Source of the DNA: Spongiibacter marinus
GTDB lineage: Bacteria; Pseudomonadota; Gammaproteobacteria; Pseudomonadales; Spongiibacteraceae
Assembly: GCF_016906995.1 (NCBI RefSeq)
Contig: NZ_JAFBBD010000008.1
Span: 1 to 64,000, forward strand
Direction: 5' to 3'
DNA length: 64,000 bases
In this document: positions 4,215-16,941 of the stretch, one piece after another
Position numbering within the stretch: position 1 is the stretch's first letter
How the letters are laid out: every line of letters starts with the position of its first letter
Made by a program: the position numbers and the translations under genes
Notes under the pieces: generated by a model
The model's database searches: none
What the model was told of the DNA's origin: nothing
Seen by the model: the letters and a program-made list of their open reading frames with translations, nothing else

Positions 4215-6065
4215 CTACAGAGCAGGATCTTCAAACAGCCAGATCACATTGTTCTCGTGGTTGCCAGTGTCTTCGCCAATCAACACTCGTCCATCGTCCA
4301 AGATCACCAGATTGTCGGGGTTGGAGATGTTATTTGTGTTACAGCGGTTTGCTGCGCGATCGCCGTAGTAGGGGCCGCCGACAAGCGCTGGGGTGAGGGT
4401 GTTGATGTCCACCAGGCCATCCTTTTCAACGAGCTTCATGCGGTAGACCACACCACACTTGCCGTGAGTGCCGTCTAGCTGAATGTCTCCGGCGCCGTCA
4501 GCCATAGTGGCGTCGAACGAAGACATGGCCAGATACATGTAGGCTTGGGCACCATCTGCAGCGCCGTTATTCCACCATGTGTCGGCCAAGCCGAAGTTGA
4601 TGTTGATGCCTTCCATTTTGCGGAACTCAGCCGTTGCGCCCATTGCGGCAGCGAGTTTGCGGCTTTCAAGGAAGGCGACACGCTCGTCGGCAAAGGGGTT
4701 GGCGGCAACGCTACCGCTGTTGTCGAGGTCTTGCCCTGACTTGAATTCTGCGAAGGCCTGAATTTGCGCATCGCTAATGTGCTTGGCGTCGGCAAACGTG
4801 CCGTCGAAGCTCGCAATGGCGTTTTCGATATCGGCCTCATTGCCAGCACCGATCTCAATCCACTCCACAGCAAAGGCAGCTTCCGCTGGGTCAGTGATGC
4901 CATTGGACTGGGTGACTTTTGCGGCGTAGAGCTTGCCCGCGCTCATATCGTTAGCGGCGTTGGCCACAAACTTAAACAGCACTGTGCCGGTGCCATCGTC
5001 GCTGAGGAAGACGGTGCGGCGGTCTGGCATAACCACGGGGTTTTCGTGTGAGAAGCGCCCCATCAGCTCAAGTTTGTTCACTTCAACATCGGCAACATTG
5101 GCTGTTGCTGCAGTGTTGTTAGTGCCGATCTCGACAATGTAACCGTAGTCGTAAGGGTTGCCCCAGTTACCGCTGCGATCAAGCGGGTAGCCTTTGTATT
5201 CAGCAATCGCTTCGGCATTGGAGAAATAATTGGCATTGGCATTGAACCAGTCGGCTGTATTGTCAAAGTACAGTTCTTCTGCCGACAGTGGCGTGCCCCA
5301 GGGGCTTACGGTGCCAAAACAGTTAACCCAGGTGCCGTCGACACTGGAGAAGTCCAGCATACCTTCCTGGGTCGGGCTGTAGGTATCCGTTAAGCGAATA
5401 CGGCTCATGCTGCCTGGGCGGTCTTCCCAGTTGGTATACAGGTAGTAGCCGGTGCCACCATCGGAGACGGCGCCGTTAAAGTCGGGGTCGTTAGAGCTTT
5501 TGATTAAACTGCCGTTAGCGCTGAGGATGTCACCCATTTTGTTGCCATCGGCGAGGTTGTCACCCTGCTGTGCCAACACAATGTAGCTGCCAGCGGCGCT
5601 TTGTACGGTTTCTTTTTGTGCCGTGGTGATCGGGAAGTCCAGAGCGGCGATATCGCCCATGTTGTTAACGTCGGCGTTAAAGTAGCCAACGGTACCTACG
5701 TTAAAGACCTTGCCAGCCGAATCGGTGGTTGTGTTAGAGCTGCTTGGGTGCTGAATATTGGAGAACAGCTTGCCGTCTTCGTTAACGAATATCCCGGTAA
5801 ACTCAGCGCCGAGCGGAGCGGTAGCAAACCGTTTGAGGCCTTTAGGTGTCACCGTAGAGACGCCATCAGCACCATCTTGACCGTCTGCGCCATCCTGCCC
5901 ATCAGCGCCATTTGCACCATTGCTTCCATCTACGCCCGCAGGACCTTGTGGGCCTACCGCGCCGTCTTGGCCATCGCTACCATTTCGTCCGTCATCGCCG
6001 CCGCAGGCTGACAATGTTGCAGCCAGAATAGCGGCAATGGAAGCGCTCAATAACTTCTTGTTCAT
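4215..6065 (-). CDS. phoX: PhoX-type (DUF839) phosphatase lipoprotein with collagen-like linker
   Basis: A 616-residue protein of the PhoX/DUF839 family; PhoX enzymes are Ca/Fe-dependent alkaline phosphatases. The C-terminal part has the family's PDNLVILDDGRVLIGED run. The signal peptide ends TLSACGG (Cys21), a strong lipobox, and is followed by 14 uninterrupted Gly-X-Y triplets at about residues 26-67, rich in GQD/GAD. No Tat twin-arginine motif is visible, unlike many PhoX proteins, so export is probably Sec-dependent. AGGGAA lies just upstream of the ATG. A Pho-box-like repeat array lies about 90 bp upstream, supporting PhoB control. Some DUF839 proteins are not phosphatases, so activity is inferred from family and context. 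Confidence 0.78.
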   Translation of the reverse strand: MNKKLLSASIAAILAATLSACGGDDGRNGSDGQDGAVGPQGPAGVDGSNGANGADGQDGADGQDGADGVSTVTPKGLKRFATAPLGAEFTGIFVNEDGKLFSNIQHPSSSNTTTDSAGKVFNVGTVGYFNADVNNMGDIAALDFPITTAQKETVQSAAGSYIVLAQQGDNLADGNKMGDILSANGSLIKSSNDPDFNGAVSDGGTGYYLYTNWEDRPGSMSRIRLTDTYSPTQEGMLDFSSVDGTWVNCFGTVSPWGTPLSAEELYFDNTADWFNANANYFSNAEAIAEYKGYPLDRSGNWGNPYDYGYIVEIGTNNTAATANVADVEVNKLELMGRFSHENPVVMPDRRTVFLSDDGTGTVLFKFVANAANDMSAGKLYAAKVTQSNGITDPAEAAFAVEWIEIGAGNEADIENAIASFDGTFADAKHISDAQIQAFAEFKSGQDLDNSGSVAANPFADERVAFLESRKLAAAMGATAEFRKMEGININFGLADTWWNNGAADGAQAYMYLAMSSFDATMADGAGDIQLDGTHGKCGVVYRMKLVEKDGLVDINTLTPALVGGPYYGDRAANRCNTNNISNPDNLVILDDGRVLIGEDTGNHENNVIWLFEDPAL

Positions 6066-6180: not shown

Positions 6181-6387
6181 CCACCAGGCTGACTGAGTGC
6201 GACATATTTGTGCGTTAGAACATTTTACGCTTCATTGGAGGGCGGTAGTGGCGGCAGATTCGATCGCCGCGGCCGGCGAGTAGCGTGAATTGGCGGTGGA
6301 AGTAGTGTTGGCATGGATTCTGTATAGAACACGGTGTCCGCACTCTTGGTATCGCAGGACATGCTGTCAAAGCATCACAATTTGGTA

Positions 6388-6515
6388 ATGGAGAGCTAGG
6401 GTTCCGGTTGTGCACCTTGCACAACGTCTGGTCCGAGAGCTTTCGACCTCTTCCCCATCGATTGGATTCGCCACGGGATAGGTTACACGGCGGGACAAAA
6501 GCCCGGGAGACGATC
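6388..6515 (+). ncRNA. guanidine-I riboswitch (ykkC class)
   Basis: The conserved blocks of the class I guanidine aptamer occur in order: CTAGGGTTCCGG at 6396-6407, GTCTGGTCCGAGAGC at 6426-6440, and ACACGGCGGGAC followed by AAAAGCCCGGGAGA at 6485-6510. The GGG/CCC pairing of the last block is intact. No poly-U run follows; instead the transporter's GGAGG sits inside a TGCC-GGA-GGCA element at 6558-6568, so control is probably translational. Guanidine binding should turn on the downstream operon. Outer boundaries are approximate. Confidence 0.93.
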
Positions 6516-6571
6516 GGCAGCCAGTTGCCAGGAGTGCTCTATTTACCGCGTAACGATGCCGGAGGCAGGCA

Positions 6572-7612
6572 ATGAAACGAATAGCCGCATTACTACTTAC
6601 TCTCTCATGTTCCTCTTTTAGTCTCGCTTCAGACAGCTTCAAAGTATGTTGGTCAATTTATGTTGGCTGGATGCCGTGGGGCTATGGTGACGAGCAAAAA
6701 ATCGTCGATAAATGGGCGAAGAAATACGGCATTGAGATTGATGTCGTTCAGATCAACGACTACATCGAGTCAATAAACCAATACACCACCGGCGAGTTTG
6801 ACGCCTGCACCATGACGAACATGGATGCGCTGACAATTCCCGCTGCCGGTGGTGTGGACAGTACCGCGCTAATTGTCGGCGATTTTTCTAATGGCAATGA
6901 CGGGCTGGTACTGAAAAATACCGACTCACTTCAGGCTGTGAAGGGACAGCAAGTGAATTTAGTTGAGTTGAGTGTTTCCCACTATTTGCTGGCGCGCGCA
7001 CTGGATAGCGTCGGCATGAGCGAATCTGACGTTACCGTTGTGAATACCTCCGACGCCGATATGGTCGCTATCTACCCAACAGCGGGGGTAAGTTCTGTGG
7101 TGACCTGGAACCCATTACTCAGTGAAATTCTCACCATGCCCGGCGCAAACAAGGTATTCGACTCTTCTCAAATACCCGGCGAAATTATCGACCTGCTCGT
7201 GGTGAACACCGAGGTATTAAAGAAAAACCCTGCTCTGGGTAAGGCGTTAGTTGGCGCCTGGTATGAAATCATGGCGACCATGAGCGCCCCAGGAAAGGCA
7301 GGCCTCGCTGCTCGCACGGCGATGGCAATTGCGTCGGGGACGGACACTGCCGGCTACGATGCGCAGCTGGCCAGTACGAAAATGTTTTACACGCCCAGCG
7401 ACGCGGTCGCTTTCACCCGCAGCAGTGACCTGAAGTCAACCATGCAGAGTGTGGCTGAATTCTCGTTTAACCACGGTTTGCTGGGTGACGGCGCTCCCGA
7501 CGCCGGTTTCATCGGTATCGAAACGCCTGTCGGTGTCTATGGCAATCCGGCAAACATTAAACTGCGTTTTAACCCCAGCTATATGCAAATGGCGGCTGAC
7601 GGCAAATTGTAA
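6572..7612 (+). CDS. guanidine/urea-type ABC transporter substrate-binding protein
   Basis: A 346-residue periplasmic binding protein with a cleavable signal peptide (about residues 1-19, ending SLAS). It resembles the NMT1/SsuA-like family annotated as the putative urea transporter component of urea carboxylase loci (TIGR03427 type). Because the operon sits behind a guanidine riboswitch, the likely ligand is guanidine. This is inferred from context, not from visible binding residues. GGAGG at 6561-6565 gives a strong ribosome-binding site. A 7-bp hairpin follows the stop, then the permease gene. Confidence 0.88.
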   Translation: MKRIAALLLTLSCSSFSLASDSFKVCWSIYVGWMPWGYGDEQKIVDKWAKKYGIEIDVVQINDYIESINQYTTGEFDACTMTNMDALTIPAAGGVDSTALIVGDFSNGNDGLVLKNTDSLQAVKGQQVNLVELSVSHYLLARALDSVGMSESDVTVVNTSDADMVAIYPTAGVSSVVTWNPLLSEILTMPGANKVFDSSQIPGEIIDLLVVNTEVLKKNPALGKALVGAWYEIMATMSAPGKAGLAARTAMAIASGTDTAGYDAQLASTKMFYTPSDAVAFTRSSDLKSTMQSVAEFSFNHGLLGDGAPDAGFIGIETPVGVYGNPANIKLRFNPSYMQMAADGKL

Positions 7613-7623
7613 ACCGTGCCCGA

Positions 7624-7641
7624 GGGTGGCGCCTGCCACCC
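7624..7641 (+). repeat. hairpin between binding-protein and permease genes
   Basis: GGGTGGC-GCCT-GCCACCC forms a perfect 7-bp stem with a 4-nt loop just after the binding-protein stop codon, followed by a short broken T run. Such hairpins often protect the 3' end of the highly expressed binding-protein transcript or cause partial termination, giving more binding protein than permease. Confidence 0.55.
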
Positions 7642-7670
7642 TAACCATTTTTCTCAGCTGGGATGCTTCT

Positions 7671-8486
7671 ATGAAACGATTGATTAATCAGCAGCCGACG
7701 CGGGTATGGGGCATTGCCTTGTCATTACTGCCCTTTGTATTCCTGCTGGTGCTTTACGTCACGGCCTCTGATGCACGCTTGGCGGAAAACCCCCAAGACA
7801 AGCTTTTACCCAGTTTCTCTCAGATGGGCGAAGCGATGCAGCGCTTAGCGTTTGAGCCGAGTAAGCGCACCGGGGAGTACCTGTTTTGGCAGGACACTCT
7901 CAGCAGTTTGCAGCGCCTGGGTTTGGGTATGGCAATTGCCGCTGGCTTGGGGATGTTGCTCGGTTTGAGTACCGGCGCCTTTCCTGTTGCCTATTCCGGT
8001 GTTGCGCCACTGCTGACGGTGGCATCACTGATACCGCCAATGGCGATTTTGCCGATACTGTTTATTGTCTTTGGTTTGGGGGAGGTGTCTAAGGTCGCGC
8101 TTATTGCTATTGGCGTAACGCCCTTCGTCGCGCGCGATATCCAAAAGCGCTGTCTGGAAATTCCCCGGGAACAGCTGGTAAAAGCGCAAACACTGGGTGC
8201 CAATAGTGGGCAAATAGTCTTGCGGGTGCTGATCCCCCAATTGATGCCTCGGCTAATTGATTCCTTGCGACTGTCGTTGGGGAGCGCGTGGTTGTTCCTT
8301 ATCGCCGCAGAAGCCATCGCCTCTACCGATGGCCTCGGGTATCGGGTGTTTCTTGTTCGTCGTTACCTGTCGATGGATGTGATTCTGCCCTATGTTGCCT
8401 GGATCGCGTTGCTGGCATTTGTTATCGACTTTGCGCTGCGCAAGCTGAGTTTGTGGGCCTTTCCCTGGCAGGAGAATCGCTCATGA
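7671..8486 (+). CDS. ABC transporter permease (guanidine uptake)
   Basis: A 271-residue inner-membrane protein of the BPD_transp_1 family, related to SsuC/TauC. An N-terminal membrane segment (LSLLPFVFLLVLYV) is followed by five or so more helices. The EAA-like coupling motif is visible around EQLVKAQTLGA...GQIVLRVLIPQ, where the ATPase docks. The ATG at 7671 is chosen because the upstream in-frame sequence overlaps the binding-protein gene and is not conserved-looking. The stop overlaps the ATPase start as ATGA, implying translational coupling. One permease gene suggests a homodimeric channel. Confidence 0.88.
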   Translation: MKRLINQQPTRVWGIALSLLPFVFLLVLYVTASDARLAENPQDKLLPSFSQMGEAMQRLAFEPSKRTGEYLFWQDTLSSLQRLGLGMAIAAGLGMLLGLSTGAFPVAYSGVAPLLTVASLIPPMAILPILFIVFGLGEVSKVALIAIGVTPFVARDIQKRCLEIPREQLVKAQTLGANSGQIVLRVLIPQLMPRLIDSLRLSLGSAWLFLIAAEAIASTDGLGYRVFLVRRYLSMDVILPYVAWIALLAFVIDFALRKLSLWAFPWQENRS

Positions 8487-9259
8487 TCGAGATTCGCAAT
8501 GTATGGAAGCGCTACGGCGACAACGTCATTCTTGAAAATATTTCTGCCACGGTTGCTGAAGGCGAATTTATCACTTTGGTCGGGGCCTCGGGCTGTGGCA
8601 AGAGTACCTTCCTGCGCATGTTGTTGGGCACTGATGTGCCCAATCAGGGTGAGATTCTGCTGGACGGCAAAACCATTGCCGATGAGCCCGATGCCGAGCG
8701 CGGCGTGGTCTTTCAGCAGTACTCGGTGTTTCCCCACATGACCGTGTTGGAAAACGTCATTATCGCCCGTGCGTTTGAGAAGACCCACCTGGGCTTTCTC
8801 TGGGGCAAGCGTAAGCGCGCTGCCCGCGACGAAGCGATGGCAATGCTGGAAACGGTGGGGCTGTCACATATGGCGGCACGTTACCCGGATGAACTCTCCG
8901 GCGGTATGCGCCAGCGACTGGCGATTGCTCAGGCCTTGATTCTAAAACCTCGGATCTTATTGCTGGATGAGCCTTTCGGAGCGCTCGATCCCGGCATTCG
9001 CGCCGACATGCACGCGCTGGTGCTGTCGCTGTGGCGCCAGCACAAGCTCACCGTGTTCATGGTGACCCACGATCTGGCTGAGGGTTTTCATCTGGGCACC
9101 CGTCTGTGGGTGTTCGACAAGTTACGTCTCGACCCGCAAGCGCCCAATCGTTTCGGTGCAGGTATTACTTACGACCTACCCGTTGGGCAGTGCGAGCCTG
9201 AATTACTGCAAGAAATTGACAGTGGCCTGAGCAGCTCAGGCCAGGAGTTAGTCTCATGA
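8483..9259 (+). CDS. ABC transporter ATP-binding protein (guanidine uptake)
   Basis: A 258-residue ATPase of the nitrate/sulfonate/taurine group. It has Walker A GASGCGKST near residue 34, a Q-loop (VVFQQYSVF), the signature LSGGMRQR, Walker B ILLLDEPFGALD and the switch His in MVTHDLAEG. It overlaps the permease stop by four bases and its own stop overlaps the next gene in the same way, so the operon is tightly coupled. It powers uptake by the transporter encoded just upstream. Confidence 0.92.
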   Translation: MIEIRNVWKRYGDNVILENISATVAEGEFITLVGASGCGKSTFLRMLLGTDVPNQGEILLDGKTIADEPDAERGVVFQQYSVFPHMTVLENVIIARAFEKTHLGFLWGKRKRAARDEAMAMLETVGLSHMAARYPDELSGGMRQRLAIAQALILKPRILLLDEPFGALDPGIRADMHALVLSLWRQHKLTVFMVTHDLAEGFHLGTRLWVFDKLRLDPQAPNRFGAGITYDLPVGQCEPELLQEIDSGLSSSGQELVS

Positions 9260-9966
9260 ATCATTATGAAACCACCATCGCGCCGGGCGGCCACTGGTCG
9301 CTGGAGCTGCGTCGCGGCACCATCCTGCGGCTGCAGGATATCGACGGCAATGGTAATGCCGGGCTGTTGTTTTATAACCCGCGCAACCTGCTCGAGCGCT
9401 ACAACGCGCCGGACACGCTCAAGTGTCAGCACACCTTCAAACTCACTCGTGGCAACTGTCTGTACTCGGATATGGGGCGCATTTTTGCCTCGATCGTTGA
9501 CGATGATCTGGGCTGGCACGACACCGTGTGTGGCAATAGCCACGCCAGCCATATTGATGCGCGCTGGGGCCGTCGCGATTACCAACACGACCGCAACGAC
9601 TGGCACCAGAACGGTCACGACGCCTTTCTGGTTGAGCTGGCGAAATACGGTCTTGGCGCCGCAGACATGGCCGCCAACATCAATGTCTTCAGCAAGGTGG
9701 AAACTGACAACGAGGGCAATCTGCACTTGGCCACCGACCACAGTGCGCCGGGCAGCACGCTGACTCTGCGCATCGAGATGGATTGCCTGGTGCTGATTCA
9801 CGCCTGTCCTCACCCGCTGAACACTGCTGCCGACTACCCGCGCTGCCGCATTGGTGTGGAATTGAGCGTGGCCGAGCCGATGACCGAGGACGATATCTGC
9901 CTCAATCACTGCGACGAAAACCGCCGTGGCTTTGCCAACAACGCACTGTATTACCTGGGCGCCTGA
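9256..9966 (+). CDS. carboxyguanidine deiminase subunit (urea carboxylase-associated protein, first of pair)
   Basis: A 236-residue member of the DUF1989/urea-carboxylase-associated family. Paired proteins of this type have been shown to form a carboxyguanidine deiminase that converts carboxyguanidine to allophanate. Likely metal-ligand and active-site segments are visible: [21 protein letters not shown] and [14 protein letters not shown]. It is paired with a shorter paralogue immediately downstream, and the two probably act as a heteromer. I do not assign the cgdA/cgdB letter from sequence alone. The start overlaps the ATPase stop by four bases. Confidence 0.87.
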
Positions 9967-9976
9967 GGAGAGAAAC

Positions 9977-10618
9977 ATGATTAAACACAGTGAACGCCTC
10001 GCCGCTACCGCGCTGCGCCGCGAGCAGATCGACGCCGGGGATTACTACATTGCGAAATTGGGCGCCGGCGAAGTGTTGCGTATCCTCGATTTAGAGGGGA
10101 ATCAGGCGGCGGATACGCTGTTCTTTTGCGCCGACGATCCCGCCGAGCGCTACAGCGCCACCGACACCATTCGCGAACAGGGCAATGTCTATCTGAGCGC
10201 CGGTTCGGTGCTACGCAGTACCCTTAACCGCCCGATGCTGGAAATAGTGGCCGATACCTGTGGTCGTCACGACACCTTGGGTGGTGCCTGCGCCAGCGAA
10301 AGCAATACCGTGCGTTACGACCTGGAAAAACGCTGCATGCACGCCTGTCGCGACAGTTGGATGCTCGCTATTGCCGAGCACCCCGAGTACGGGCTGAGCA
10401 AGCGCGACATCGGCCACAACATCAACTTTTTTATGAATGTGCCGGTCACGGCCAATGGCGAACTGAGCTTTGCCGACGGCATTTCCGGCGCGGGGAAATA
10501 TGTGGAACTGAAAGCGCTGGTCGACACCATTGTGCTCATTTCCAATTGCCCGCAGCTCAACAATCCCTGCAATGCCTACAACCCGACCCCGGTCGAGTGC
10601 CTGATCTGGACGGCCTGA
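9977..10618 (+). CDS. carboxyguanidine deiminase subunit (urea carboxylase-associated protein, second of pair)
   Basis: A 213-residue DUF1989-family paralogue of the preceding gene. It shares the pattern of the pair: [14 protein letters not shown] in the middle and [22 protein letters not shown] near the C-terminus, with Cys and His residues likely to bind metal. It is preceded by GAGGAGAG, and the ATG at 9977 removes a run overlapping the upstream gene. With its partner it is expected to deiminate carboxyguanidine to allophanate, releasing ammonium between the carboxylase and hydrolase steps. Confidence 0.87.
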
Positions 10619-10693
10619 TTAACAAGCGATCCAACGACTTCAGTGGACGGCCACTGTCGTAGACACAAGCGGGACGGCCCGCAACGGACCAGC

Positions 10694-13600
10694 ATGTTCA
10701 AGAAAGTATTGATTGCCAACCGCGGTGCCATCGCCACCCGCATTATTCGCAGCTTGCGCGAAATGGGCATCACTTCTGTGGCGGTCTACGCCGACGTCGA
10801 TGCCCGCAGTCTGCATGTGCGTCAGGCCGACGAAGCCTACAGCCTCGGCGAGGGCGGCGCAGCCGACACCTATCTCAACAGCGACAAAGTCTTGGAAATT
10901 GCCCGCGCCTGTGGCGCCGAGGCCATCCACCCCGGCTACGGTTTCCTCAGCGAAAACGCGGCTTTCGTCACTGCCTGCGAGGCGGCGGGGATCGTCTTTA
11001 TCGGCCCCACTGCGGAGCAGATGCAAAGCTTTGGCTTGAAACACCGCGCGCGGGAGATTGCTGCGGCCGCGGGAGTGCCCCTGCCGCCGGGCTCGGGCTT
11101 GCTGGCGGATGTGGATACTGCCTGTGCCGAGGCCGCGAATATTGGCTACCCGGTCATGCTCAAAAGCACCGCCGGGGGCGGCGGTATCGGCATGCAGGTT
11201 TGCGATTCAGAGGCGGTGCTGCGCGAGGCCTTTAACAAGGTCAAGCAACTGGGTAAGAACAACTTTGCCGACGACGGCGTGTTTCTGGAGAAGTACATTG
11301 CCCGCGCCCGGCATATTGAAGTGCAAGCCTTTGGCGATGGTCAGGGCGGTGTGCTGGCCATCGGCGAGCGCGACTGCAGCGCCCAACGCCGCAACCAGAA
11401 AGTCATTGAAGAGTGCCCGGCGCCGAATTTGCCCGAGCCAGTGCGTCAGCGGCTTTACACGCTGGCCGAGGCGCTGCTGTCCAGTGTGAACTACCGCAAT
11501 GCCGCGACGGTGGAGTACATTTTTGATGCCGATACCGAGGAGTGCTATTTCCTCGAAGTGAACACCCGCTTACAAGTAGAGCACGGCGTCACCGAGATGG
11601 TCTGGTCGGTGGACCTGGTGCAGTGGATGTTGCAACAGGCGGCGGGGGAACTGCCGCCACTGGATGCGCTGCGTCAGGGGCTGTCTGCCAGCGGGCACGC
11701 GATTCAGTTGCGAGTGTATGCCGAAGATCCCTACCGGGATTTTCAGCCCTGCGCGGGGCTGCTCAGTCATGTGGCATTTCCCCAGCCTGATGAAGCGCTG
11801 CCGGGCCTGCGTATTGAGCACTGGCTGGAAAGCGGTATTGAGGTGTCACCGTACTTCGATCCGATGCTGGCGAAGATTCTCTACCGAGGGGAGGACCGCG
11901 ACGCCGCGATTCAAGGCCTGCGCGAGACGCTGGATCAGACGCAGTTGTACGGCATCGAAAGCAACTGTGCCTATCTGCGTTACTTGCTGGATGACGCCGT
12001 GGTGGCGAAGGGCGACGTCACAACTCGCTATCTTGCACAGGTAACTTGGCAGCCTGCGCGTATCGATGTGCTGCAGGGCGGTACCCAGACCACCATTCAG
12101 GATTTCCCCGGTCGCGGCGGCTACTGGGATGTCGGCGTGCCGCCCTCGGGGCCCTTCGACAATTATTCCTTCCGGCTCGCTAATGCCATGCTGCGCAACA
12201 TGCCCGACGCGGCCGCACTGGAAATCACCCTGCAGGGGCCGACCCTGCAATTCAGTGCACCGACCCGCATTGCGGTGGCGGGGGCGGCCATTCCACTGAG
12301 TCTGGATGGTGAGCCCGTGGCGATGCACACGCCGGTGGAGGTGGCCGCTGGGCAGACTCTGATCATGGGGCGTATCGAGCGCGGCGCGCGGGCGTATCTG
12401 GCCGTTGCAGGTGGCCTCGATTGCCCCGAGTACCTCGGCTCGCGCTCCACCTTTACCCTCGGCCAATTCGGCGGTCATAACGGCCGCGCGCTGCGCACCG
12501 GCGATGTATTGGCGCTGGCGCAGAGCGCATCCGCTGGGCTGGCGCTCAGCCCGGATCAGGCTGCTCTGCCGGACATCGGCTCGCGGTGGTCGCTGCGGGT
12601 GATTTATGGCCCCCACGGCGCGCCAGACTTTTTTACCGACGACGATATCCAGCAGTTCTTCAGCACCGACTGGGAAGTGCATTACAACTCCAGCCGCACC
12701 GGCGTGCGCCTGATCGGCCCTAAGCCGCAGTGGGCACGCCAGAGTGGCGGCGAAGCGGGCATGCATCCGTCCAATATTCACGACAACGCCTACGCCTTTG
12801 GCACGGTGGATTTCACCGGCGATATGCCGGTGATCCTCGGCCCGGACGGCCCCTCGCTGGGCGGCTTTGTCTGTCCCGCCACGGTGATTACCGCCGACCT
12901 GTGGAAACTCGGCCAGTTGCGCGCCGGGGACACGTTGCGCTTTGTGCCGGTCAGCGTTGACGCGGCGGTGGCGGCTGAGCGCTGCCAGCAGGCCTTTTTC
13001 GCCGGTGATGAGCTTGGCGATAGCGCCGCTGCTGCCGAATCCGTGGCGCCGGTCTCTGTCGAGGCTCTGCCGTCGCCCATCGTGCAACGCCTCAGTGTGG
13101 ACGAGGTGGGCGATGAGGTGGTTTATCGCGCAGCGGGCGATCACTTCCTACTGGTGGAATACGGCCCGCTGGAGCTGGATATTCGCCTGCGCTTTCGCGC
13201 CCATGCTTTGATGCAGGATTTGCAGCAGACACCATTGCCGGGGCTGCGTGAACTCACGCCGGGCATTCGCTCACTGCAACTGCATTATGACGCGCAGCAA
13301 TTACCGCTGCGTGAGCTGCTGGACGAGCTGGCGCGCCGCGAACGGCGTTTATCGCAGCGCTTGGATTCCCTGCACGTGCCATCGCGCACGGTGTGGCTAC
13401 CGCTGAGCTGGGACGACGAGGCCTGCCAGTTGGCAGTGGATAAATATCAGCAGTCAGTGCGTGCCAATGCGCCCTGGTGCCCGAGTAATCTGGAATTTAT
13501 CCGCCGCATCAACGGCCTCGACAGCATTGCCGAGGTCAAGGAGATCGTCTTCGACGCCGCCTATCTGGTGATGGGCCTGGGCGATGTGTATCTGGGCGCG

Positions 13601-14332
13601 CCGGTCGCCACGCCAGTCGATCCGCGTCACCGCTTGGTGACCACCAAATACAATCCGGCGCGTACCTGGACCGCAGAAAACTCGGTGGGTATCGGCGGCT
13701 CTTATCTTTGCGTGTACGGCATGGAAGGGCCGGGCGGTTACCAGTTTGTCGGTCGCACCCTGCAAATGTGGAATCGCTACCGCCGCACGGCCGCGTTTAC
13801 CGAGCCCTATCTGCTGCGCTTTTTTGATCAGATTCGCTTCTACGAAGTCAGCCACGATGAACTTACGCAAATTCGTCGTGATTTCCCGCTGGGCGACTAC
13901 CCGCTGCGCATCGAGGAGGGCGAGTTTTCGCTGGCGCAGTACGAAGCGTTTACTACCCAGCACGCGGCGGAAATCGATACCCATATTCGCCGCCGAGAGC
14001 AGGCTTTCGACGACGAGCTGGCGCGCTGGCATGCCGATGGCCAGTTCCACTACGAGGCACCGGAGGTCGAGGTCAGCGACGATACGCTGGTGATTGGCGA
14101 CGACGACATTGTGGTGGACAGCTCGGTGGCGGGCAGCGTTTGGCAGCTCAATGTTGCCGAGGGCGACGAGGTGCAAGCTGGCCAGTGCGTGATGTTGCTG
14201 GAGTCGATGAAGATGGAAGTGGCCGTGCTTGCCAGCCAGCCGGGCCGGGTGAAAACGGTGGTGGTGAAAGCCGGTAGCCGCGTTAGTGCCGGTCAGCCGC
14301 TGTTAATTCTGGACGGGGAGGACGCGCAATGA
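10694..14332 (+). CDS. biotin-dependent guanidine (urea-type) carboxylase
   Basis: A 1212-residue single-chain carboxylase. Domains in order: biotin carboxylase with ATP-grasp (about 1-445; GGGGIGMQV loop, EVNTRLQVEHGVTE), an AHS2/KipA-like domain from about 455 (TTIQDFPGRGGYWDVG), an AHS1/KipI-like domain from about 795, a C-terminal carboxyltransferase segment (SVGIGGSYLCVYGMEGPGG), and a biotinyl domain with ESMKMEV, where Lys1173 carries biotin. Databases label this family urea carboxylase. The riboswitch and the deiminase pair indicate guanidine as substrate. The gene ends in an ATGA overlap with allophanate hydrolase. The ATG at 10694 is preferred over an upstream ATG because FKKVLIANRG is the standard N-terminus. 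Confidence 0.92.
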   Translation: MFKKVLIANRGAIATRIIRSLREMGITSVAVYADVDARSLHVRQADEAYSLGEGGAADTYLNSDKVLEIARACGAEAIHPGYGFLSENAAFVTACEAAGIVFIGPTAEQMQSFGLKHRAREIAAAAGVPLPPGSGLLADVDTACAEAANIGYPVMLKSTAGGGGIGMQVCDSEAVLREAFNKVKQLGKNNFADDGVFLEKYIARARHIEVQAFGDGQGGVLAIGERDCSAQRRNQKVIEECPAPNLPEPVRQRLYTLAEALLSSVNYRNAATVEYIFDADTEECYFLEVNTRLQVEHGVTEMVWSVDLVQWMLQQAAGELPPLDALRQGLSASGHAIQLRVYAEDPYRDFQPCAGLLSHVAFPQPDEALPGLRIEHWLESGIEVSPYFDPMLAKILYRGEDRDAAIQGLRETLDQTQLYGIESNCAYLRYLLDDAVVAKGDVTTRYLAQVTWQPARIDVLQGGTQTTIQDFPGRGGYWDVGVPPSGPFDNYSFRLANAMLRNMPDAAALEITLQGPTLQFSAPTRIAVAGAAIPLSLDGEPVAMHTPVEVAAGQTLIMGRIERGARAYLAVAGGLDCPEYLGSRSTFTLGQFGGHNGRALRTGDVLALAQSASAGLALSPDQAALPDIGSRWSLRVIYGPHGAPDFFTDDDIQQFFSTDWEVHYNSSRTGVRLIGPKPQWARQSGGEAGMHPSNIHDNAYAFGTVDFTGDMPVILGPDGPSLGGFVCPATVITADLWKLGQLRAGDTLRFVPVSVDAAVAAERCQQAFFAGDELGDSAAAAESVAPVSVEALPSPIVQRLSVDEVGDEVVYRAAGDHFLLVEYGPLELDIRLRFRAHALMQDLQQTPLPGLRELTPGIRSLQLHYDAQQLPLRELLDELARRERRLSQRLDSLHVPSRTVWLPLSWDDEACQLAVDKYQQSVRANAPWCPSNLEFIRRINGLDSIAEVKEIVFDAAYLVMGLGDVYLGAPVATPVDPRHRLVTTKYNPARTWTAENSVGIGGSYLCVYGMEGPGGYQFVGRTLQMWNRYRRTAAFTEPYLLRFFDQIRFYEVSHDELTQIRRDFPLGDYPLRIEEGEFSLAQYEAFTTQHAAEIDTHIRRREQAFDDELARWHADGQFHYEAPEVEVSDDTLVIGDDDIVVDSSVAGSVWQLNVAEGDEVQAGQCVMLLESMKMEVAVLASQPGRVKTVVVKAGSRVSAGQPLLILDGEDAQ

Positions 14333-16140
14333 CATTGCCCGCACTGAGTCGCCGCAGCCTGCATCAGGCTTACCGCGATGCTAGCCTGACACCGCGCAAG
14401 CTGATGGCCGAGATTGCCGCGCGCTGCGACGCGCTCAACGATCACAATATCTGGATTTATCGCCTCAGCGCGGCGGAGCTGGAGCCGTATCTGCAAGCGT
14501 TGGACGGGCACAGTCCCGACAGCCTGCCGCTGTTTGGTCTGCCCTTTGCCATTAAAGACAATATCGATCTGGCGGGGGTGCCGACCACGGCGGCCTGCGA
14601 CGCCTTCAGCTATACCCCCTCGCAATCGGCGACGGTGGTGCAAGCGCTGATTGCCGCCGGGGCGATTCCGGTGGGCAAAAGTAACCTCGACCAGTTTGCC
14701 ACTGGGCTGGTGGGCACCCGCTCGCCCTGGGGCGCCTGTAAAAACAGTGTCGACCCCGACATGATCAGTGGCGGTTCCAGCTCTGGCTCGGCGGTGGCCG
14801 TGGCCAAGGGGCTGGCCTGTTTCAGCCTGGGCACTGACACGGCGGGCTCGGGTCGTGTGCCAGCCTGCTTTAATAATCTGGTGGGCCTCAAGCCCAGTAT
14901 CGGCCTGTTGTCGGCCACGGGGATGGTGCCCGCCTGCCGCTCGCTGGACTGCATGACAGTGTTTGCGTTGAATGTGGATGACGCCCACGCGGTGCTGTCG
15001 GTGGCTGAGGGTGAGGACGCCAGTGATGCCTACAGCCGCGCCAACCCCTTCGGCAACCGTTCTCGCCATTACGGACGACATGCCGGCAAATTGCGCCTGG
15101 GCGTGATGCCAGCGGAACAACTCGCCTTTTTCGGTCACGCGGGCTACGAGCAGGCCTATCAGCAGAGCCTCGCGGCGATTGCCGAGGATGATGAGATCGA
15201 GCTGATTGAGGTGGATATGTCGGCCTTTCTCGATGCCGCCAAACTCCTCTATGAAGGCCCCTGGGTGGCGGAGCGCTATCTGGCCTGCTCACCGCTGATT
15301 GAGGAGCAGCCCGACGCACTGCTGCCGGTCACCCGAACGATTATCAGCGGAGGTGCAGCGCCGTCAGCGCGGGATGCCTTCTTTTTTCAGTATCGATTAA
15401 AAGCCTTGCGCAAACTGGCGCAGGCCGCGCTGGATTCGGTGGATGCACTGCTCACACCCACCGCGCCGCGGCCCTATTCGATTGCCGAGCTGGACGCTGA
15501 CCCCATCGCCCTGAACAGCAATACCGGCTACTACACCAACTATATGAACCTGTTTGACCTCTGCGGTTTGGCGCTGCCTACGGCGTTTACCGACGACGGT
15601 TTCCCCTTTGGCCTGACGCTGGTTGCCGAGGCCTTTGGCGACCGCAAGCTGCTGTCGATTGGTAACCGTCTGCAACAGCGTTTTGCCCTGCCGCTGGGCG
15701 CGGAAAGGCGTGCTTTTGAAGCGCTTTCCGAGAATGCTTCGACAGCGGCCGAGCGGGTGGACGTGGTGGTTTGCGGTGCCCATCTGGACGGTCAGCCCCT
15801 TAACTGGCAGCTTCGTGAGCGTGGAGCCACCTTACAGCTGTGCACGCAGTCAGCCCCTGATTACCAGCTCTATGCCTTGCCTGGTGGGCCGCCGTTGCGT
15901 CCGGCCATGGTGCTGGCCGAGTCCGGCCAGGGGCAGGCGATCGAGGTGGAGGTCTGGTCGATGCCGCTCGCCGAACTTGGCAGTTTTGTGGCCGGGATTC
16001 CGGCGCCACTGGGCATTGGCAAAGTGCGGCTGGCCGACGGACGGCTGTGCCCGGGCTTTATCTGCGAGCAGTCGGGGATTCATGGTGCGACGGACATCAG
16101 CCATTTTGGCGGCTGGCGGGCCTACCTCTGCAGCTTATAA
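14329..16140 (+). CDS. atzF: allophanate hydrolase, AtzF type
   Basis: A 603-residue amidase-signature enzyme that hydrolyses allophanate to ammonium and CO2. The Ser-cisSer-Lys triad can be read directly: Lys76 (FAIKDN), Ser150 (GGSSSGS) and Ser174 (DTAGSGR). These have the same spacing as the AtzF triad. A C-terminal domain of about 140 residues (from about 465; VDVVVCGAHLDGQPLN) is the extra domain of AtzF-type enzymes. It is the last gene of the guanidine operon and overlaps the carboxylase stop by four bases. Confidence 0.92.
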   Translation: MTLPALSRRSLHQAYRDASLTPRKLMAEIAARCDALNDHNIWIYRLSAAELEPYLQALDGHSPDSLPLFGLPFAIKDNIDLAGVPTTAACDAFSYTPSQSATVVQALIAAGAIPVGKSNLDQFATGLVGTRSPWGACKNSVDPDMISGGSSSGSAVAVAKGLACFSLGTDTAGSGRVPACFNNLVGLKPSIGLLSATGMVPACRSLDCMTVFALNVDDAHAVLSVAEGEDASDAYSRANPFGNRSRHYGRHAGKLRLGVMPAEQLAFFGHAGYEQAYQQSLAAIAEDDEIELIEVDMSAFLDAAKLLYEGPWVAERYLACSPLIEEQPDALLPVTRTIISGGAAPSARDAFFFQYRLKALRKLAQAALDSVDALLTPTAPRPYSIAELDADPIALNSNTGYYTNYMNLFDLCGLALPTAFTDDGFPFGLTLVAEAFGDRKLLSIGNRLQQRFALPLGAERRAFEALSENASTAAERVDVVVCGAHLDGQPLNWQLRERGATLQLCTQSAPDYQLYALPGGPPLRPAMVLAESGQGQAIEVEVWSMPLAELGSFVAGIPAPLGIGKVRLADGRLCPGFICEQSGIHGATDISHFGGWRAYLCSL

Positions 16141-16177: not shown

Positions 16178-16426
16178 ATGTTGGAAAGCTGGAAAGATTA
16201 TTGCCCTTACTGCGGCGAGCGTATCGAACTGCTGATCGACCCGAGCCTGGCAGGGGAGCCGTACGTTGAAGACTGCGAGGTATGTTGCCGGCCCATGCGC
16301 GTCAGCGTGAGCGATGGCGACGCGCCACTGGGCGCTGATAGCTGGGCGCAGGCGATAGAGGAGCTGCCCGCGTTGGCGTCCGACTCCGGTTTGCAGGTTC
16401 AGCTTCAACGCGAAGATGAGGTGTAA
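16178..16426 (+). CDS. CPXCG-motif cysteine-rich protein
   Basis: An 82-residue protein with a zinc-ribbon-like layout: [14 protein letters not shown] near the N-terminus and DCEVCCRPM about 20 residues later. This matches the small Cys_rich_CPXCG family of unknown function, common in gammaproteobacteria. It starts 37 bp after the guanidine operon and ends 2 bp before the macrodomain gene, with which it is probably co-transcribed. Confidence 0.8.
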
Positions 16427-16428
16427 CG

Positions 16429-16941
16429 ATGCCCTGTGAACTGCGAGCTATAGAAGCAGATATCTGCCAGCTGAAGGTTGATGCCATCGTTAATGCCGCC
16501 AATAACAGCTTGCTCGGCGGGGGCGGTGTCGACGGCGCCATTCACCGGGCGGCGGGGCCGGCGTTGTTGGAATTCTGTCGCGGCTTGCAGGGTTGCGCGA
16601 CCGGCGATGCCAAAGTCAGCCCCGGTTTTGCACTGCCAGCTCAATACGTTCTTCATACGGTAGGGCCGGTGTGGCACGGCGGTGAACAGGGCGAGGCCGA
16701 TAAACTGGCGAGTTGCTATCGCCGCTGTATTGAAGAGGCCAAGGCACTGGAGCTTGCTACTCTGGCCTTTCCGGCCATTAGCTGCGGCGTATATGGCTAC
16801 CCTCACGACCAGGCTTGCGCTATTGCAGTGGCCAGTTTACGGGAGGCCTTGCTTGAGCCGCGCAGCCTCCGGCAGATCTCTCTGGTGGCGTTCAGCCCGG
16901 AAATGCTGGCCCACTGGCAGCGGGCTTTAGCGCACGGCTAG
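16429..16941 (+). CDS. macrodomain protein, O-acetyl-ADP-ribose deacetylase type
   Basis: A 170-residue single macrodomain similar to YmdB/MacroD. The ligand-binding core DAIVNAANNSLLGGGGVDGAIHRAAG and the second loop FPAISCGVYGYP are intact. Family members remove acetyl from O-acetyl-ADP-ribose or mono-ADP-ribose from proteins. It follows the CPXCG gene by two bases. No toxin partner (DarT-like) is seen next to it, so a housekeeping role is more likely than antitoxin function. Confidence 0.88.
   Translation: MPCELRAIEADICQLKVDAIVNAANNSLLGGGGVDGAIHRAAGPALLEFCRGLQGCATGDAKVSPGFALPAQYVLHTVGPVWHGGEQGEADKLASCYRRCIEEAKALELATLAFPAISCGVYGYPHDQACAIAVASLREALLEPRSLRQISLVAFSPEMLAHWQRALAHG

Follow-up and report, generated by a model that had tools for sequence, protein, structure and literature searches.

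Operons for guanidine assimilation have been described in Vreelandella (Halomonas) boliviensis (PMC12508155) and in enterobacteria (PMC12186494), and in both a guanidine-II riboswitch lies between cgdB and the carboxylase gene. The CgdA and CgdB proteins are needed for carboxyguanidine and not for urea (PMC11410670, PMC12186494), and the carboxylases themselves follow a residue rule, in which an Asp at the position numbered 1330 in Kluyveromyces lactis marks guanidine as the substrate and an Asp at 1584 is required (PMC11410670). We analyzed a 64,000-nt stretch of Spongiibacter marinus DNA (the window; contig NZ_JAFBBD010000008.1, assembly GCF_016906995.1; all coordinates are window based) in which a guanidine-I riboswitch aptamer is followed by seven genes on the same strand (6572-16140, +), each with a family match. 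We put the probability that these genes form an operon for guanidine assimilation by the known guanidine carboxylase pathway at about 0.93; the pathway assignment is firm on sequence, and the actual substrate is inferred.

Results

Pathway and substrate

An earlier note on this DNA had recognized a guanidine-I (ykkC-class) aptamer and suggested a covariance search with the Rfam model, which confirms the element at 6385-6511 (Table 1). The match is full length and is the only one over a gathering score when the whole window is searched with cmscan, and the 3.57-Mb genome holds no second RF00442 match at E up to 0.001. Across the genus, 17 of 18 genomes, including this one, contain an RF00442 match, 16 of them over the cut-off. 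For a wider comparison we used the best 80 of 269 named loci from relatives; these were found through the linked binding protein and are therefore not an unbiased sample. In each of the 80, the aptamer motif precedes the binding-protein gene. One congeneric genome (L024/L026) carries a stretch of about 100 nt in P2, and RF00442 finds its aptamer in two parts, each a weak match.

Family matches place the transporter, the deiminase pair, the carboxylase and the allophanate hydrolase where the earlier note had put them, down to the exact end at 16140. The carboxylase is full length (TIGR02712 positions 1-1200 of 1201), with BC, CT and BCCP domains by Pfam; its start is the ATG at 10694, and translation from 10691 has one extra leading residue. 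The allophanate hydrolase has both its amidase and its AH_C domain. CgdA (UAAP1) and CgdB (UAAP2) are neighboring DUF1989 proteins, both above the curated cut-off, and they are encoded by the only two DUF1989 genes of the genome. TIGR02712 likewise has one match over its cut-off in the genome, that is, there is no other full-length carboxylase, and urease alpha has no match in this genome (99.99% complete, 3.57 Mb). The genome has one SMR transporter gene, which lies outside the operon.

The residue rule can be read directly on the carboxylase. Among solved structures it best matches PDB 3va7 and 5i8i, one a urea carboxylase-type protein, the other a urea amidolyase. We take these to be the K. 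lactis urea carboxylase/urea amidolyase, a species also implied by the numbering in PMC11410670. Asp706 (codon 12809-12811) faces N1330 in the alignment to 5i8i, counted by eye, where the K. lactis urea carboxylase has Asn. The printed 5i8i alignment stops before the 1584 site, and we placed its equivalent, Asp964, by counting; it is the identical Asp in GLGDV on the 3va7/5i8i match line. A motif scan of 108 sequences (the window, the 80 named loci and 27 short loci) located the 1330 equivalent in 71, namely the window and 70 named loci and none of the short ones, and the residue is Asp in every one. The ten named loci lacking this match stop at or before the site, no more than about 6.3 kb past the start of the binding-protein gene. 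At the 1584 equivalent, all 70 matches have Asp.

In the proposed pathway, the ABC importer would bring guanidine into the cell, where the biotin- and ATP-dependent carboxylase would convert it to carboxyguanidine. CgdAB would deiminate carboxyguanidine to allophanate and ammonia, and allophanate hydrolase would release two further ammonia and CO2. The guanidine-I riboswitch ahead of the binding-protein gene is expected to turn the operon on in response to guanidine, and the guanidine-II-like riboswitch ahead of the carboxylase gene would add a second guanidine-dependent step. For both RNA elements we infer ligand binding as well as the direction and level of control.

The database names point to another substrate. 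NCBIfam gives these families urea names, as the earlier note had anticipated, and the nearest solved structures are urea enzymes too; read in that way, the genes would serve urea use, as an operon of urea carboxylase and allophanate hydrolase (urea amidolyase), and a cell with no urease alpha match would indeed need some other urea route. Against this stand the guanidine-I aptamer above its cut-off, Asp instead of Asn at the 1330 equivalent and a CgdAB pair that has no role in urea cleavage (PMC11410670, PMC12186494). Because of these three features we reject urea use as the main role, and we regard a urea operon as highly improbable. An equally slim chance attaches to methylguanidine, or another guanidino compound, being the main substrate rather than guanidine. 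The V. boliviensis operon, which is of the same kind, encodes enzymes for methylguanidine as well, and the guanidine-II switch there does not discriminate methylguanidine (PMC12508155). However, mgdH and mgdL lie between the carboxylase and hydrolase genes there, whereas here those two genes overlap by ATGA; this absence of mgdH and mgdL concerns the operon, not the genome as a whole. We found no evidence that contradicts the guanidine pathway, and the aptamer, the Asp at the 1330 equivalent, the CgdAB pair and the unmatched urease alpha together support the guanidine reading that the earlier note had favored.

Operon layout and relatives

Table 1. Features of the S. marinus guanidine locus (window coordinates).
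Feature	Coordinates	Strand	Evidence
Guanidine-I riboswitch aptamer	6385-6511	+	RF00442, 86.8 bits, gathering score 63, E 3.9e-14, model 1-107
P2 5' arm and loop of aptamer; proposed anti-Shine-Dalgarno strand	6443-6461	+	Duplex with own Shine-Dalgarno region
GGTTACACGG, P2 3' strand and P3 5' strand; proposed switching strand	6481-6490	+	Predicted pairing
Expression platform: hairpin, GAGTGCTC, CCGCGTAAC (6546-6554), Shine-Dalgarno GGAGG (6561-6565)	6512-6571	+	Sequence
ABC transporter substrate-binding protein, predicted guanidine binder	6572-7612	+	TIGR03427, 562.9 bits, cut-off 333.9
Terminator-like hairpin in binding protein/permease gap, then AACCATTTTT	7623-7642	+	Terminator scan, 8 pairs
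ABC transporter permease	7671-8486	+	PF00528, 64.2 bits
ABC transporter ATPase	8483-9259	+	PF00005, 126.3 bits
cgdA, carboxyguanidine deiminase subunit (UAAP1, DUF1989)	9256-9966	+	TIGR03425, 310.2 bits, cut-off 205.95
cgdB, carboxyguanidine deiminase subunit (UAAP2, DUF1989)	9977-10618	+	TIGR03424, 316.2 bits, cut-off 284.7
Guanidine-II-like riboswitch, two ACGG-loop hairpins (10641-10656, 10669-10682)	10641-10682	+	RF01068 at 10641-10681, 28.0 bits
Guanidine carboxylase (annotated urea carboxylase), biotin-dependent, 1212 aa	10694-14332	+	TIGR02712, 1789.5 bits, cut-off 1303.85
Allophanate hydrolase	14329-16140	+	TIGR02713, 767 bits, cut-off 511.05; PF01425 and PF21986

The ATGA overlaps attributed to the operon hold at three junctions, permease/ATPase (8483-8486), ATPase/cgdA (9256-9259) and carboxylase/allophanate hydrolase (14329-14332), and fail at the other three, where there are gaps instead: 58 nt between the binding-protein and permease genes, 10 nt between cgdA and cgdB and 75 nt between cgdB and the carboxylase gene. 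The first of these gaps contains a hairpin through which output of the binding protein could be higher than that of the permease, in a scan whose total count of terminator-like sites was not above that in shuffles; the last contains the guanidine-II-like element. The operon is bordered upstream by a gene for a PhoX-type protein with a collagen-like repeat (4215-6065, -) and downstream by genes for a CPXCG cysteine-rich protein and a macro-domain protein (16178-16941, +).

Genes 1-6 are collinear in all 67 relatives' loci that extend at least 9 kb from the binding-protein start, the other 13 of the 80 being too short. The nearest operons, from Neomelitea, Spongiibacter, Zhongshania and Gilvimarinus (L027-L035), have the same seven genes in order and the same leader layout at 66-99% protein identity to S. 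marinus, with no difference seen beyond sequence drift. The earlier description of the operon as complete is correct for S. marinus; among the 67 loci, an allophanate hydrolase gene follows the carboxylase gene in 46 and is absent from 21 (tblastn, 1e-20), and therefore those relatives may encode the final step at another place or carry it out differently. The loci with no linked hydrolase are L041, L043, L048, L054, L060, L061, L063-L067, L069, L071, L074, L079, L081, L083, L085, L094, L100 and L105; in the two that we inspected, L085 and L065, other genes lie behind the carboxylase gene.

A guanidine-II-like element ahead of the carboxylase gene

The earlier note overlooked a second, guanidine-II-like sensor inside the operon, as well as a possible and unusual control of translation by the first sensor. 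Between cgdB and the carboxylase gene, a search with RF01068 at a permissive threshold matched a pair of hairpins (E 0.022 over 10.5 kb, 4e-4 over 201 bases). Because its score falls short of the gathering score of 32, we call the element guanidine-II-like. The folding energy of the region is also unexceptional (z -1.42, 17 of 200 shuffles as good), which likewise weighs against the assignment. Within this genome, where 150 of the 289 first-look candidates were scored, no other RF01068 match has an E value of 1 or less. Comparison across loci speaks for the element: the cgdB-carboxylase gap contains at least two ACGR-loop hairpins, of at least four pairs each, in 68 of 72 loci (the window included), one in two loci and none in two, and no gap had two such hairpins after shuffling (20 letter shuffles per gap). 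On these grounds 10641-10682 is probably a guanidine-II-like element, formally below the cut-off.

The hairpin pair also stands ahead of the carboxylase gene in Alcanivorax-type loci (L060, L061, L063-L067, L071, L074, L081). In the excerpts of PMC9788540, guanidine-II in Alcanivorax is reported solely ahead of a SugE-like gene, and guanidine-I ahead of a 'urea' binding-protein gene is interpreted as serving guanidine export.

The leader of the first riboswitch

Neither the terminator scan nor the sequence lists an intrinsic terminator (hairpin and T run) after the aptamer, at 6512-6571. A platform of about 60 nt with a similar layout (hairpin, GAGTGCTC-like block, GTGTAA-like block and Shine-Dalgarno (SD) sequence) recurs in many relatives. 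In the predicted ligand-free fold, GGTTACACGG pairs with CCGCGTAAC. From 92 distinct leaders we kept 84 with an ATG start and a platform of up to 100 nt, and then 50 representatives; kinship among leaders was reduced by clustering, without a tree model. RNAalifold on a MAFFT alignment of 78 leaders recovered the P3 hairpin alone, and because the short hairpins look misregistered in that alignment, we relied on per-sequence folding with shuffles.

In the 50 representatives, the outer strand, GGTTACACGG, pairs with the platform with a mean probability of 0.71, compared with 0.47 in dinucleotide shuffles (Wilcoxon p 2e-10), and GGGAGA does so with 0.74 compared with 0.49 (Wilcoxon p 4e-11). The S. 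marinus leader by itself gives 0.79 for GGGAGA against 0.32 in its shuffles (p 0.03). The longest ungapped complement to the P2/P3 strand averages 6.7 nt in the 92 leaders and 5.2 nt in letter shuffles.

A second set of results concerns the SD region, whose mean unpaired probability is 0.16 in full leaders, 0.39 in the platform alone and 0.36 in the platform with the aptamer tail (n=50). Sequestration by the aptamer tail alone is rejected on these numbers (0.39 vs 0.36, p 0.92, 50 leaders). By hand count, the full folds of 35 of the 50 leaders give the SD region at least five expected pairs with the arm and loop of P2; the S. marinus leader has 6.8, and several leaders have about none. In 44 representatives of 85 leaders, the predicted duplex of the P2 arm has -11.98 kcal/mol with its own SD region and -9.30 kcal/mol with swapped ones (permutation p 0.0002), a preference that persists in the flanks when the ACCU core is left out (-2.58 vs -0.92 kcal/mol, p 0.0002). 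Anchored pairing, counted in 30 representatives drawn from leaders fitting the anchors, is likewise higher for own than for swapped partners (65.8% vs 54.8%, p 0.0005). In S. marinus the duplex between arm and SD region reaches -15.4 kcal/mol, compared with a mean of -9.5 with the SD regions of other leaders (rank 0.02 among 44).

We also considered an in-frame upstream AUG and dropped it, as it is absent from the window though present in many same-genus leaders. By eye, AGGAG is followed within a few bases by an ATG that precedes the binding-protein start and shares its frame in same-genus or near leaders (L006, L007, L009, L010, L012-L016, L018, L019, L028-L033 and L035).

Discussion

The leader comparisons could be explained by translational strand exchange. 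When guanidine is absent, pairing of the P2 3' strand with the downstream strand would free the P2 5' arm, which would then pair with the SD region; with guanidine, P2 and P3 would be stabilized and the SD region released. Such an exchange is suggested by the alternative fold conserved among relatives and by the co-adaptation of their P2 arm to the SD region, and on this modeling we give it roughly even odds for the first riboswitch. Several results weigh against it. The aptamer tail alone leaves SD accessibility unchanged, and the drop to 0.16 in full leaders carries no significance test. In the swap test the own SD region is among the best 10% in just 15 of 44 leaders, and a near relative, L034, shows no preference (-7.4 vs -7.8, rank 0.5). 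The controls are weakly positive too, with smaller effects: reversed arm (p 0.065), reversed SD region (p 0.15), early open reading frame (-3.59 vs -3.13, p 0.028) and reversed flank (-1.26 vs -0.78, p 0.024). In S. marinus itself, the outer strand does not clearly exceed its shuffles (0.80 vs 0.47, p 0.10), the longest ungapped complement is 5 nt and no better than in the leader's own shuffles (0.76 of 50), and the stability of the entire leader is unremarkable (z -1.17, matched by 21 of 200 shuffles). Forcing the aptamer to form lifts SD accessibility merely from 0.42 to 0.48, in a fold 16.5 kcal/mol less stable than the free one. For the S. marinus locus taken alone the translational model is therefore weak; because of the small gain in SD accessibility, this energetic cost and the ordinary stability of the leader, the model rests here on the relatives and would need kinetic rather than equilibrium folding.

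The leader might instead act on transcription, through Rho or a weak terminator, and we hold this to be a serious contender that falls somewhat short of even odds. Guanidine-I usually works on an intrinsic terminator (PMC12186494), one is presumed for V. boliviensis guanidine-I (PMC12508155), and by eye a GC hairpin and T run follow soon after the aptamer in 5 of the 31 other loci printed (L110, L112, L118, L129 and L132). Yet no terminator-like site is listed at 6512-6571, and a run of five T occurs in the platform of just 3 of the 50 representative leaders. Given those five loci, both types of platform seem to exist within the guanidine-I class.

Extending translational strand exchange beyond this locus, we tentatively propose that many marine gammaproteobacteria may have a guanidine-I switch with no terminator that works by a two-step strand exchange in which the SD region mimics the P2 3' strand. 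In such bacteria, two guanidine-sensing translational switches might stand in series, one for uptake and deiminase and one for carboxylase and hydrolase; this proposal is rather less than an even bet. We found no report of translational guanidine-I control in the literature searched, which comprises listings and excerpts of PMC12186494, PMC7736828, PMC6031431, PMC7266159, PMC10907184, PMC12508155 and PMC9788540 and does not cover all earlier guanidine-I papers. If the leader model is true, guanidine-I joins the riboswitch classes with translational control, with an aptamer helix strand that doubles as an anti-SD sequence, an arrangement directly testable in many relatives. Apart from the leader, the locus adds a well-supported example to those where 'urea' annotations ought to read 'guanidine', in a genus where most of the genomes examined have the riboswitch.

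Comparison with known systems

A close described counterpart is the operon of V. boliviensis (PMC12508155), which has guanidine-I at the start, then the ABC importer and cgdA/cgdB, guanidine-II between cgdB and the carboxylase gene, and the carboxylase and allophanate hydrolase genes. As far as the excerpts allow comparison, the S. marinus operon differs in having no mgdH/mgdL between carboxylase and hydrolase and no visible counterpart to the terminator that the authors presume for guanidine-I. The operons of Raoultella terrigena, Klebsiella michiganensis and Erwinia rhapontici (PMC12186494) are alike in pairing guanidine-I with the importer and deiminase genes and in placing guanidine-II ahead of the carboxylase and hydrolase genes; their hosts are enterobacterial, and the likeness is one of description, not of sequence. 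At the level of the enzyme, the K. lactis structures (3va7, 5i8i) are homologous over the full length of the carboxylase (residues 3-1204), with Asn1330 where S. marinus has Asp, and 5i8i unites hydrolase and carboxylase in one chain where S. marinus has separate genes. The operon belongs to a known kind; what is added here is a second sensor, the guanidine-II-like element, and a possible translational leader for the guanidine-I switch.

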